A stretch of 64,000 nt of DNA from Limosilactobacillus avistercoris (lineage in GTDB: Bacteria > Bacillota > Bacilli > Lactobacillales > Lactobacillaceae): the NCBI RefSeq assembly GCF_014836425.1, contig NZ_JACSQW010000002.1, positions 62,001-126,000 on the forward strand, in the 5' to 3' direction. This document shows, one piece after another, positions 11,960 to 50,757 of this stretch (positions are counted from its first letter, which is position 1; each line of letters opens with the position of its first letter). The position numbers and the translations under genes are program-made. The notes below the pieces were generated by a model that saw only the letters and a list, made by a program, of their open reading frames with translations, was not told the DNA's origin and made no database searches.

Positions 11960-11968
11960 CAAAGAAAG

Positions 11969-11998
11969 AGGCCGGAAAACAATTTGTTTTCTGGCCTC
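11969..11998. terminator. Bidirectional terminator
   Basis: Arms GAGGCCGGAAAAC / GTTTTCTGGCCTC with an A-rich left flank and T-containing right flank. It serves the mazG-like gene on plus and the small gene at 12023-12166 on minus. Confidence 0.85.
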
Positions 11999-12022
11999 TA
12001 ATTATTAATAGTAATGTTTAAT

Positions 12023-17314: not shown

Positions 17315-17333
17315 TTGACTCTCGTGGTAATGG

Positions 17334-17372
17334 GAGGCTAGGAAAAATGGCTTGTTTTTCCCAGCTTCTTTC
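17334..17372 (+). terminator. Intrinsic terminator after the SDR gene
   Basis: Arms GAGGCTAGGAAAAA / TTTTTCCCAGCTTC with a trailing T-rich run. Confidence 0.8.
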
Positions 17373-26372: not shown

Positions 26373-26409
26373 TCTTAGATAAAAGTGTTATACTGTAATT
26401 AACAATAAA

Positions 26410-26490
26410 CGGGGAGCTTGTATAACAGGCTGAGAGGAAGATGTGATCTTCGACCCATGGGACCTGATTTGGATAATGCCAACGGAGGGA
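26410..26490 (+). ncRNA. TPP riboswitch (THI element)
   Basis: Contains the hallmark pieces in order: GGGGAGC, CTGAGA, GACCC, then ACCTGATTTGGATAATGCCA and CGGAGGGA. These form the pyrimidine- and pyrophosphate-sensing arms of the thiamine pyrophosphate aptamer. It lies ahead of cytX with a terminator hairpin downstream, implying premature termination when TPP is high. Confidence 0.95.
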
Positions 26491-26507
26491 ATTCAATTAA
26501 GAATTTT

Positions 26508-26546
26508 AAAGTCGATCAGGTTTTAAACCTGGTCAACTTTTCTTTA
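26508..26546 (+). terminator. Expression-platform terminator of the TPP riboswitch
   Basis: Arms AAAGTCGATCAGGTTT / AACCTGGTCAACTTT with a following T-rich run. It lies 18 bases after the aptamer and about 45 bases before the cytX start. Confidence 0.85.
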
Positions 26547-26589
26547 TCAGGATCAAGTTCCGCTAATCATGTAAAGGATGGTGGAACTG

Positions 26590-27762
26590 ATGCAACATAG
26601 GACATCACTGTTTGAAAATGGAATGATTTGGTGTGGAGCAGGAATCTCAATTGCCGAGATCCTGACAGGAACGTATTTGGCACCATTAGGAATGACGAAA
26701 GGAATTATCGCGATTATTTTAGGCCACCTTATTGGTTGTAGCCTTCTTTTCCTTTCGGGAGTAATTGGTGGTCAGTTACGGATTAGTGCAATGGAATCCG
26801 TTAAACTTAGCTTTGGTCAAATTGGGGCGTTGTTTTTTGCATTATTGAATGTCCTCCAGCTAGTCGGTTGGACCGGGATTATGATTTATGATGGTTCATT
26901 AGCGGCTGATGGACTCTGGCAACTTGGTCAACCGACATGGTGCCTGTTAATTGGGATTTTGATCATTTTATGGTTGGTTATTGGGATTCGACGACTAAAA
27001 TGGCTTAATTTGGTTGCACTAGCTGCTTTGCTGCTACTAACGGTTGGCCTTTGCTACCTCATCTTTACGGAGCCACATGTCAACAGTCGTCTAGGCAGCC
27101 TGTCGTTTGGTCAAGGACTAGAATTAGCCATTTCGATGCCTCTTTCGTGGTTACCTTTAATTTCAGACTATACTTCGGTAGCCCAGAAGCCGGCACAAGC
27201 GAGCGGTGTTAGTGCGGTTATGTATGGGGTGATTAGTTGTTGGATGGCAATCGTTGGCTTAGGTGCAACCCTCTTAACCGGTGAAACGAACATCGCTAAA
27301 ATAATGCTTGGTGCTGGAGTGGGTCTCAGTGGCTTAGCCATTGTTCTCCTCTCGACAGTCACCACGACCTTTATGGATGCTTATTCTGCTGGTGTTTCTG
27401 CCCAGACACTAAAAGTTAAGTGGTCATCCCGCTCAACTGGGATCTTGGTAACGGTCTTTGGCGTTCTGGGAGCGATTATTTTGCCGATGGATAATTTCAG
27501 TAACTTTCTCTATATTATTGGTTCCGTGTTTACTCCAATGATTACAATTCAGATTATGGACCGCTTTGTTTTCCATTTTGATAATCGTAATCAACAGGTT
27601 AATTGGCGAAACTTCAATCTATGGTTGATTGGCTTCATCGTTTACCGGTGCTTGATGCTGATCGACTTACCGGTCGGGAATACCTTGCCAGATGTTATGA
27701 TTGTGATGCTTCTGGTATGGTTAGTTGAGCGCAAAAGAAAAAGCACAACAGAACTACTTTAA
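26590..27762 (+). CDS. cytX: CytX-type thiamine-precursor (hydroxymethylpyrimidine) transporter
   Basis: 390 aa membrane protein of the NCS1 nucleobase/cation symporter family, about 11-12 hydrophobic helices, starting at ATG 26590 (GGTGGA upstream). The N terminus ENGMIWCGAGISIAEILTG and the conserved PLSWLPLISDYTS fit CytX. The TPP riboswitch directly upstream supports a role in uptake of a thiamine precursor, probably HMP. No thiamine-synthesis gene follows, so this is a stand-alone regulated transporter. Confidence 0.9.
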   Translation: MQHRTSLFENGMIWCGAGISIAEILTGTYLAPLGMTKGIIAIILGHLIGCSLLFLSGVIGGQLRISAMESVKLSFGQIGALFFALLNVLQLVGWTGIMIYDGSLAADGLWQLGQPTWCLLIGILIILWLVIGIRRLKWLNLVALAALLLLTVGLCYLIFTEPHVNSRLGSLSFGQGLELAISMPLSWLPLISDYTSVAQKPAQASGVSAVMYGVISCWMAIVGLGATLLTGETNIAKIMLGAGVGLSGLAIVLLSTVTTTFMDAYSAGVSAQTLKVKWSSRSTGILVTVFGVLGAIILPMDNFSNFLYIIGSVFTPMITIQIMDRFVFHFDNRNQQVNWRNFNLWLIGFIVYRCLMLIDLPVGNTLPDVMIVMLLVWLVERKRKSTTELL

Positions 27763-28924: not shown

Positions 28925-29149
28925 GTGGCATTAACAATTTCATTGGTAATCCTCGCCTTACTAATCGGTTTAGTTGGCGGTTTCTTTGGTGCTCGTCGTT
29001 ACATGGAAAACTACCTTCGCAATAATCCACCTATTAGTGAAGAAATGTTGCGGACAATGATGTTACAAATGGGCCAGAAGCCATCTAGCCGAAAGTTACA
29101 TCAAATGATGCAAACCATGAAGGCGCAAGCCAAAAAAGCAAATAAGTAA
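28925..29149 (+). CDS. yneF: YneF/UPF0154 small membrane protein
   Basis: 74 aa from GTG 28925, with a strong AAGGAGG. One N-terminal helix (SLVILALLIGLVGGFFGARRY) is followed by the family-typical NPPISEEMLRTMMLQMGQKPS and a basic tail. It is conserved near lexA in Bacilli; function unknown. Confidence 0.93.
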   Translation: MALTISLVILALLIGLVGGFFGARRYMENYLRNNPPISEEMLRTMMLQMGQKPSSRKLHQMMQTMKAQAKKANK

Positions 29150-29159
29150 TTTTTAAAAG

Positions 29160-29200
29160 ATAAGAGGGTGAGAAAAACGTTTTGTTTTTCTCACCCTTAA
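29160..29200. terminator. Bidirectional terminator after yneF
   Basis: Arms AAGAGGGTGAGAAAAAC / GTTTTTCTCACCCTT with loop GTTTT. On the minus strand it ends in CTTATCTTTT, so it would also stop transcripts coming from plsC or the structured region next to it. Confidence 0.9.
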
Positions 29201-29215
29201 TCTATTCTTAATAGT

Positions 29216-29353
29216 TTCAAATTTATAAAGTCTAATTACGGGAATCCTAAAGGCTAGCTTTGCGTCGTAACCAGGGCCTTAGAGCTTAATGCAGCGGTGC
29301 AAGCCTATTTGTCTCTCAAGAAGGTTAATTCCCAGATTTCTTTCAATTTATAA
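29216..29353. ncRNA. Structured intergenic RNA candidate, possibly 6S-like
   Basis: The stretch between the yneF terminator and plsC can fold into a rod. Outer blocks AAATT/AATTT, AAAG/CTTT, TCT/AGA, GGGAAT/ATTCCC and CC/GG are followed by an asymmetric bubble. An inner stem AGGCT/AGCCT continues as TGCGTCGT/GCGGTGCA (with wobble pairs). A bulged rod with a large central bubble is the general shape of 6S RNA. The minus strand puts a good terminator at the 3' end; neither strand shows a convincing promoter, so strand and identity are open. Confidence 0.4.
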
Positions 29354-30004
29354 TTAAAAGTCGTCATCTTTTGGCTTTGGTGGAACAATGTATTTGTAAT
29401 TTGGATTAATTTGGTGGTCTAGTTCATCAAAAGCCTTTTGCATTTCATCTTCTAGTTTTGCCTGGCTTTCATCATCTAATTTGTTTTTGCGGTCAACATA
29501 GATTGGCTTACCAAAGGCAATGTGGCGAGGTTGTCGCTTAAACATTTCACCAAACTTGAGTGGCCCTTGATAAACAACCGGAACGAGAGGAACATTCGCT
29601 AATTTGGCAATTAAAGTAGCACCACCCTTTAACTTGCTTGAATAGCGGGAACCTGATGGAAAAATAATTGTTGATAGATCGGTCTTCCGCAGGATCTGGA
29701 CTGGCTTCTTAATAACAGATGGACCGGGATTTTTACGGTCAACTGGGAAAGCATGGAGCCGTTTTAAGAAGAAGGCGTCTAAAGGATTTTTGAATAACTC
29801 CTTTTTTGCCATAAAACTAAACTTCTTTGGGTAGATCGCTAGAGCAATTAGGACCGGATCCATCCATGTCCGGTGGGGGGCAATAATGATATAATTGCCG
29901 TCGGGTATATTTTCCTTATTATAAATTTTAGCTTTGCCATTAATTAAGTTTAAAAATGGTTGAACAATGGCAACGAGAAATGAATATAGCATAAAATCAT
30001 CCAA
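29354..30004 (-). CDS. plsC: 1-acyl-sn-glycerol-3-phosphate acyltransferase
   Basis: Adds the second acyl chain to make phosphatidic acid; works at the membrane ahead of CdsA, which is also in this window. 216 aa. The HX4D motif is PHRTWMDPV (about residues 44-51). The second motif FPSGSRYS replaces the common EGTRS. VPVVYQGP follows. The N terminus is hydrophobic. Start ATG at 30004. It is a single gene divergent from trmN6. Confidence 0.92.
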   Translation of the reverse strand: MDDFMLYSFLVAIVQPFLNLINGKAKIYNKENIPDGNYIIIAPHRTWMDPVLIALAIYPKKFSFMAKKELFKNPLDAFFLKRLHAFPVDRKNPGPSVIKKPVQILRKTDLSTIIFPSGSRYSSKLKGGATLIAKLANVPLVPVVYQGPLKFGEMFKRQPRHIAFGKPIYVDRKNKLDDESQAKLEDEMQKAFDELDHQINPNYKYIVPPKPKDDDF

Positions 30005-50704: not shown

Positions 50705-50757
50705 AAAAATAGGGTTCCAAAATTCGGCCTTTTTCCCGAGCTTTGGAGCCCTATTCT
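50705..50757. terminator. Bidirectional terminator
   Basis: AATAGGGTTCCAAA pairs with TTTGGAGCCCTATT (one mismatch) with an inner CGG...CCG. It serves ribF and the convergent minus-strand gene. Confidence 0.85.

Follow-up and report, generated by a model that had tools for sequence, protein, structure and literature searches.

A probable decayed copy of a dispersed, structured Limosilactobacillus repeat between plsC and yneF

Introduction

In Limosilactobacillus avistercoris, the gap between the genes plsC and yneF holds an interval of about 140 nucleotides without a gene, and the question is whether this interval is a structured RNA in its own right or something else. The original prediction, made from the letters of the DNA, described it as a bulged rod with several paired blocks, typical in outline of 6S RNA, followed by a strong terminator on the minus strand; as alternatives it named a 3' UTR element of plsC and an undescribed small RNA, and as a check it proposed to look for compensatory changes in relatives. 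We followed up this prediction in the window, i.e., the whole stretch of 64,000 nucleotides (contig positions 62001-126000), and in genomes of the same genus and family.

Results

The gap itself was borne out, the two genes converging on it, and so was the strong terminator on the minus strand (Table 1). The hairpin also has a terminator-like score on the plus strand (29164-29198) and is therefore possibly shared with yneF. Position favors the alternative of a 3' UTR element of plsC.

Table 1. Features at the plsC-yneF locus in window coordinates
Feature	Position	Strand	Basis or remark
plsC-type acyltransferase (PF01553)	29354-30004	-	stop codon 14 nt before element start
yneF (UPF0154/YneF)	28925-29149	+	convergent with plsC
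Damaged element copy, core	29233-29339	-	R1 covariance match, 68.0 bits, E 9.4e-18 in own genome; contig numbering 91233-91339
P1 closing helix, 5' strand (UGGGAAU)	29328-29334	-	alignment of copies
P1 closing helix, 3' strand (AUUCCCG)	29239-29245	-	alignment of copies
Helix A first part, 5' strand (UAACC)	29323-29327	-	partner 29268-29272 (GGUUA)
Helix A first part, 3' strand (GGUUA)	29268-29272	-	alignment of copies
Internal-deletion junction	29311-29313	-	alignment with full-length copies
Repeat unit B5	29291-29311	-	
Repeat unit B3, inverted relative to B5	29246-29267	-	
Tail, core to terminator, alike among copies	29199-29232	-	alignments
Intrinsic terminator-like hairpin	29165-29197	-	

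The proposed identity as 6S RNA had to be given up. The 6S model (RF00013) had no match in the interval, either at the gathering threshold or at E values up to 10, and the only 6S match of the genome (63.5 bits) is on another contig (C55), between proteins that match AAA-ATPase/RarA-type and universal-stress models with scores below the curated cut-offs. Lactic acid bacteria carry a single 6S copy between rarA and uspA, according to the excerpted text of PMC8414754. The 6S gene of this genome thus lies elsewhere, in the locus reported for lactic acid bacteria, and the window element, located at plsC/yneF, is not 6S RNA; the likeness is one of bulged rod outline only, whereas model match, locus and the multicopy nature of the element all differ. 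In the whole window, Rfam 15 at the gathering cut-off detected only a TPP riboswitch and a tRNA, both elsewhere; the riboswitch (26400-26508, 71.2 bits) is upstream of an ORF (26578-27762) that is permease-like as judged by eye. The interval yielded 14 weak Rfam matches at E ≤ 10, every one below cut-off, and eight loci of the same genome with copies of the element described below yielded none at E ≤ 0.1.

Taken alone, the window copy folds no better than shuffled sequence on either strand. The minimum free energy (MFE) of the interval is -27.2 kcal/mol on the plus strand (z 0.05; 95 of 200 dinucleotide shuffles equally good) and -23.6 kcal/mol on the minus strand (z 0.85; 159 of 200), and in the folding test applied to the element set this copy had a z of 0.06 (40 shuffles).

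The interval has relatives, however, and it is in this family that a fold is seen. A 211-base query including the terminator gave 18 matches in its own genome, self included, of which two are terminator palindromes on the other strand and some consist of tail and terminator only; with the same query, 18 of the 50 genus genomes matched, many to the terminator part alone. Thirteen full-length copies were aligned with MAFFT without fitting to a model (alignment A1). Unguided prediction from A1 returned a closing helix P1, a two-part helix A, a short CUA/UAG helix, a hairpin H2 and two small local hairpins, and 15 of its 44 predicted pairs had both-side changes in at least one sequence. With a crossing helix B in place of the small hairpins, 92.6% of cells were paired, compared with 85.2% in shuffled and 34-41% in slid alignments. 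Both-side changes then occurred in 14 pairs (9.0 in shuffled alignments), further pair types showed no excess (32 versus 33.1 shuffled), and the changes derive from few lineages.

That the fold on the gene strand is kept by compensatory changes emerged from a larger set. R1, a covariance model of the nested part of the fold, provided alignment A2, comprising 103 R1 matches from 100 loci and omitting 14 of 114 loci that were low-scoring, partial or near-duplicate or were left out for room. Because A2 was fitted to the model, it is biased in the model's favor; with this bias, 96.1% of cells in its 101 distinct rows were paired (78.2% shuffled, 33-44% slid), 28 of 36 pairs had both-side changes, further pair types numbered 80 versus 63.8 in shuffled alignments, and no measure was reached by any of 500 shuffles (0/500). 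The three outer helices were paired in 95.7-99.0% of cells, and the inner nucleotides of the element are strongly conserved. The prediction of a structured RNA therefore holds for the family, whose fold covaries, and not for the interval itself, which stays within the shuffle range; likewise, compensatory changes in relatives are found for the element family and not for the decayed window copy. A chance fold is rejected for the family by covariation and z scores, and is what the window copy alone amounts to.

The relevant strand of the window element is the minus strand. In A2, with the same lean of a model-fitted alignment, G-U cells outnumber A-C cells by 290 to 36, as would be expected if the strand read here is the folding strand. 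Sense-strand folding gave a mean z of -4.78, with 90 of 103 copies below -2 (40 shuffles each), and the MFE was lower on the sense than on the antisense strand in 97 of 103 copies. An RNA from the plus strand is made unlikely by this asymmetry and by the lower sense MFE, although antisense folding still beats shuffles (mean z -4.10; 85 of 103 below -2).

An intact element measures 120-165 nt. It consists of an outer rod (P1 and helix A) closed by the two ends, the inner hairpin H2 and, depending on the copy, none, one or two units of ~23 nt (B5 and B3), and is followed by a 20-30 nt tail and then a hairpin. Among the 103 copies, 49 contain both units, 21 only B3, 11 only B5 and 22 neither. B5 and B3 lie in inverted orientation, are complementary (-20.7 kcal/mol versus -10.6 when shuffled) and can pair across helix A. 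Helix B was considered as a coevolving pseudoknot and rejected: the strands of one copy paired better with each other than with strands of different copies in only 21 of 49 cases, and B5 and B3 are lost independently, so a pseudoknot is not claimed. Two copies, L134 (in genome G042) and L163 (in G021), share a 5' flank, apparently at one site, with B3 present in one and absent from the other; modules may thus be gained or lost in place.

Compared with full-length copies of 165 nt, the window copy is reduced to 107 nt, ~58 nt comprising H2 and the second half of the helix A 5' strand being gone. Its junction reads GAGAG-A-CAAATAGG where full copies have GAGAGCC...GTAGCCAAATAGG, and the loss presumably arose by deletion between GCC repeats. 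Minus H2 and half of helix A, the plsC copy is probably inert apart from its terminator. Of the paired blocks originally listed, GGGAAT (29240-29245)/ATTCCC is helix P1 of the conserved family fold, and AGGCT/AGCCT is also present, belonging to the inverted pair of repeat units, where pairing shows no covariation; AAATT/AATTT and AAAG/CTTT were not found in the conserved fold. Singly, then, the interval is ordinary: a worn repeat copy beside a good terminator.

The element is widespread within the genus, which includes L. reuteri and L. vaginalis. At E ≤ 1e-3, R1 matched 34 of 50 genus genomes with 462 matches (the sum of rows, fragments included), ranging from 1 to 49 per matching genome; 21 of the 50 carry 10-49, and the genome studied here has 19 (the best 19 of 30). 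Among 301 genomes of the family, searched with strict filters and 9 candidates scored per genome, 10 of the 15 same-genus genomes matched and 0 of the other 286 did, a tally of one in 40 genera. One genome from each of 39 other genera, with 74 candidates each, also gave no match (0/39); this set contains no known-positive genome and was drawn from the same 301-genome family group, so that the two results are not independent. A pattern scan of named genomes found 29 stretches, all titled Limosilactobacillus except for one MAG titled uncultured Lactobacillus. There was no match in plasmids and phages by blastn with one 241-base copy as query, nor in viral contigs with one exact pattern. Copies resemble others of the same genome: the nearest neighbor was in the same genome for 43 of 93 copies, versus 6.0 (at most 16) after shuffling. 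One genome (G012) has 49 R1 matches of which the best reaches only 63.6 bits, which suggests a diverged, expanded subfamily.

To describe genomic position we used 114 of 131 listed matches: 14 from the own genome and, from the other genomes, those with the best scores among the matches listed. The set includes the orthologous pairs L055/L144, L079/L176 and L161/L162; we dropped 17 matches, namely 8 duplicates, an antisense match, 3 that were second in their locus and 5 short pieces from the own genome (L090-L094). The element mostly follows the stop of a co-oriented gene, its 3' end facing a strong hairpin. With ORFs of 100 aa or more counted as genes, 82 of 114 copies have a co-oriented nearest upstream gene and 32 do not, and in 66 of the 82 (66 of 114 overall) the stop of this gene lies within 30 nt of the element start. 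By eye, two copies (L178 and L180) follow a tRNA-like end. Immediately ahead of the element, the final six bases are rich in A. For 111 copies the neighboring genes are convergent in 51, tandem and co-oriented in 29, tandem and antisense in 26 and divergent in 5; in the window, 5 of the 52 adjacent pairs are convergent, or 3 of 18 if gaps of at least 100 nt alone are counted. After exclusion of 8 copies because of N or a locus end, 95 of 106 had a hairpin reaching -16 kcal/mol or lower in the 105 nt downstream, compared with 17 of 106 for the upstream side and 24 of 105 for random windows from these loci; this energy-based count replaced an earlier finder without bulges (stem of at least 10 downstream in 69 of 106 and upstream in 10 of 106). 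A T-run stands at the stem end in 74 of the 100 copies with a downstream hairpin of -12 or better. Two hairpins of the GAGG..GGAAAA type, the same type as the element's terminator, occur in the window at 11966-12000 and 17332-17370 with no element adjoining (no R1 match), so this type also exists apart from the element.

Orthologous sites differ between species. The plsC gene was found in 50 of 50 genus genomes, and its 3' spacer was inspected by eye in our genome and 29 others. One of these spacers is cut by a contig end (G021) and one is not followed by yneF (G034); none of the remaining 27 contains the element, 22 having a plain hairpin and 5 another repeat (G011, G020, G027, G028 and G030). 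Across the 30 plsC loci, R1 found, besides the copy of our genome, a single weak match (16.2 bits, E 0.0064) within the other repeat in G030. The closest relative, G011 (PlsC 97% identical), is among the five with another repeat. At a locus that we take to be ClpE-like from AAA_2 and ClpB_D2-small domains, G011 (98%) has an uninterrupted, clean empty site with the same hairpin type; the hairpin there thus seems older than the insertion. By eye, the element is present in none of the 7 relatives shown for this locus and in none of the 8 shown for a HAD locus, where G011 (97%) has a different hairpin. Two further sites in G011 gave weak R1 matches of 26.1 and 27.7 bits: at an EamA locus it has a 3' remnant of the element and another hairpin stem, and at an OMPdecase-family locus a damaged element that is oppositely oriented and lies beyond the hairpin, on its other side. 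Judged by eye, 2 of the 3 protein-anchored loci show a change of hairpin together with the change in the element, so that the hairpin may either precede the insertion or travel with it. The sites are in keeping with insertion beside terminator hairpins and subsequent decay; at any single site, loss in the relatives is a possible alternative.

Target-site duplications, a criterion for MITEs, do not accompany the element in general: among 104 copies, flank-tail similarity was 13.86 in true pairs versus 13.79 in mismatched pairs. A 3-bp GAG at the ClpE-like site is a possible duplication. The strings TTATAAATTGAAA/TTATAAATTTGAAA around the window copy were among the ten top-scoring pairs, yet were rejected as a duplication, since true pairs do not exceed mismatched ones in similarity. 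In a separate observation made by eye, the flanks of L087, L048, L151, L126 and L121 share AACCTAAGATTAGTT/CCTACGATTAGT-like strings, which may be the ends of an insertion sequence beside the elements.

Discussion

Altogether, we consider it quite probable that the window interval is a decayed copy of a genus-wide dispersed, apparently non-coding and non-autonomous repeat of the BOX/REP/bcr kind, which would settle next to terminator hairpins and become a structured mRNA 3' end. We infer the agent of movement, the transcription and the effect of the element along the following lines. As a mobile repeat it would spread non-autonomously, with a tolerance or preference for the foot of terminator hairpins, and would be transcribed as the final section of the gene's mRNA; rod and terminator would then form a compact 3' end that most likely either slows 3'-to-5' decay or has little effect.

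Three known systems are comparable by description. BOX elements of Streptococcus pneumoniae are read by their authors as non-autonomous mobile elements, and in the passages available from that study (PMC3049150) they are dispersed and modular, with outer modules that form the closed portion of the fold and a varying number of central ones, and over-represented between convergent genes. Our element has the same design, its ends being present and paired and its central modules variable, but it belongs to another genus, faces a strong hairpin with its 3' end, often starts near a stop codon and loses its inner units singly instead of arraying them in tandem. Its ends pair through the 7 bp of P1, which runs on into helix A where B3 is missing; judged as MITE terminal inverted repeats, they also serve the fold. 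REPs tagged GTAG/CGTC, in the extracts of PMC3733652, are intergenic, predominantly between convergent or tandem genes and, in two species, mostly <20 bp from the gene 3' end between convergent genes, with G-T pairs in their stems taken as a sign of transcription. The element resembles them in being intergenic and near gene 3' ends, in the convergent or tandem setting and in its G-T pairs. GTAG occurs beside H2. REP/BIME hairpins, however, are 20-40 bp long, some of them with transposase genes, unlike a two-part rod of ~120-165 nt with an inner hairpin; tagged REPs are also placed in other phyla, neither "Lactobacill" nor "Firmicutes" occurring in the main text as extracted (PMC3733652). The intergenic repeats bcr1-bcr18 of the Bacillus cereus group, from a different genus, resemble the element in having, in some cases, a conserved secondary structure; as presumed for the element, many of their copies lie in mRNA, 3' UTRs included (84 of 165 and 62 of 155 copies in two strains; excerpts of PMC3446304). 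In the same excerpts, bcr3 correlated with decay rate and bcr1 and bcr2 did not, and a stability effect should therefore not be assumed for our element either.

We advance only tentatively the bolder version in which the elements are genus-specific mobile mRNA 3'-end modules, inserted with fixed polarity at the foot of terminator hairpins by recognition of structure and not of sequence, their fold being selected in the transcript so that unrelated genes come to share a 3' UTR.

For REPs with RAYT and for IS200/IS605 ends, single-stranded DNA is processed by a transposase. A possible but doubtful reading of our family is accordingly a non-autonomous DNA element whose fold is kept for such processing, with RNA being incidental. 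Dispersal and turnover, the modular inverted units of ~23 nt and the general lack of target-site duplication would all suit this reading, and G-T is tolerated by single-stranded DNA too. The 5' border, A-rich and with no fixed tetranucleotide, speaks against it, though not strongly, as does the coincidence of the folding strand with that of the upstream gene in most copies (82 of 114).

It is unlikely that the family is a host-selected regulatory 3' UTR module, in which binding of a protein or metabolite to the fold adjusts the mRNA stability of a regulon. Such a module would account for the strong conservation of fold and inner nucleotides and for the position close after stop codons. The upstream genes, however, are unrelated: 70 upstream proteins fall into 62 clusters, and no Pfam family occurs more than twice among the 64 scanned (6 near-relatives left out). 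A regulon was rejected for this want of shared function, and the differences of sites between close species also count against a host-selected module.

Still less credible are independent small RNA genes, each with a promoter of its own, that duplication has scattered. The compact fold with its hairpin would be in keeping with them, and so would the 26 of 111 copies lying antisense between tandem genes, but sigma-70-like promoters are not in excess in the 70 nt upstream (3 of 69 versus 4.5 expected and 3 of 45 versus 4.2, mononucleotide shuffles). The chance that the window element is 6S RNA or a 6S-like polymerase decoy, to which the rod outline had pointed, is negligible given the missing model match, the 6S gene at its expected locus elsewhere, the insignificant fold of the window copy and 19 family matches in a genome of a group with one 6S copy (PMC8414754, as excerpted).

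Returning to the dispersed repeat, what is new here is a covarying, modular Limosilactobacillus repeat, mostly in a 3' UTR position, for which we found no earlier description among the matches listed in open-licence main texts on repeats and RNAs of lactobacilli; one may be in print elsewhere. In the text seen of PMC2267715, Lactobacillus is named once, as L. johnsonii, and the word is absent from the main text of PMC8040213. If the element is mobile, it offers a natural experiment: unrelated genes of one species carry one and the same structured 3' UTR, which the corresponding gene of the next species lacks, and the influence of such structure on mRNA decay could be tested directly. The case also calls for caution, as copies of intergenic repeats in Limosilactobacillus can pass for individual small RNAs.

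A second dispersed repeat was noticed by eye in the same kind of place, after stop codons. It is a long hairpin with a TTCGG...CCGAA-like center and a variable stem, often with CACAAA/TTTGTG flanks, and was seen at L184, L192, L208, L211, L212 and L262 (plsC or HAD genes) and at L043 and L076. The window contains a copy at 50707-50755, which is 79.6% identical over 49 nt to the copy at L262.
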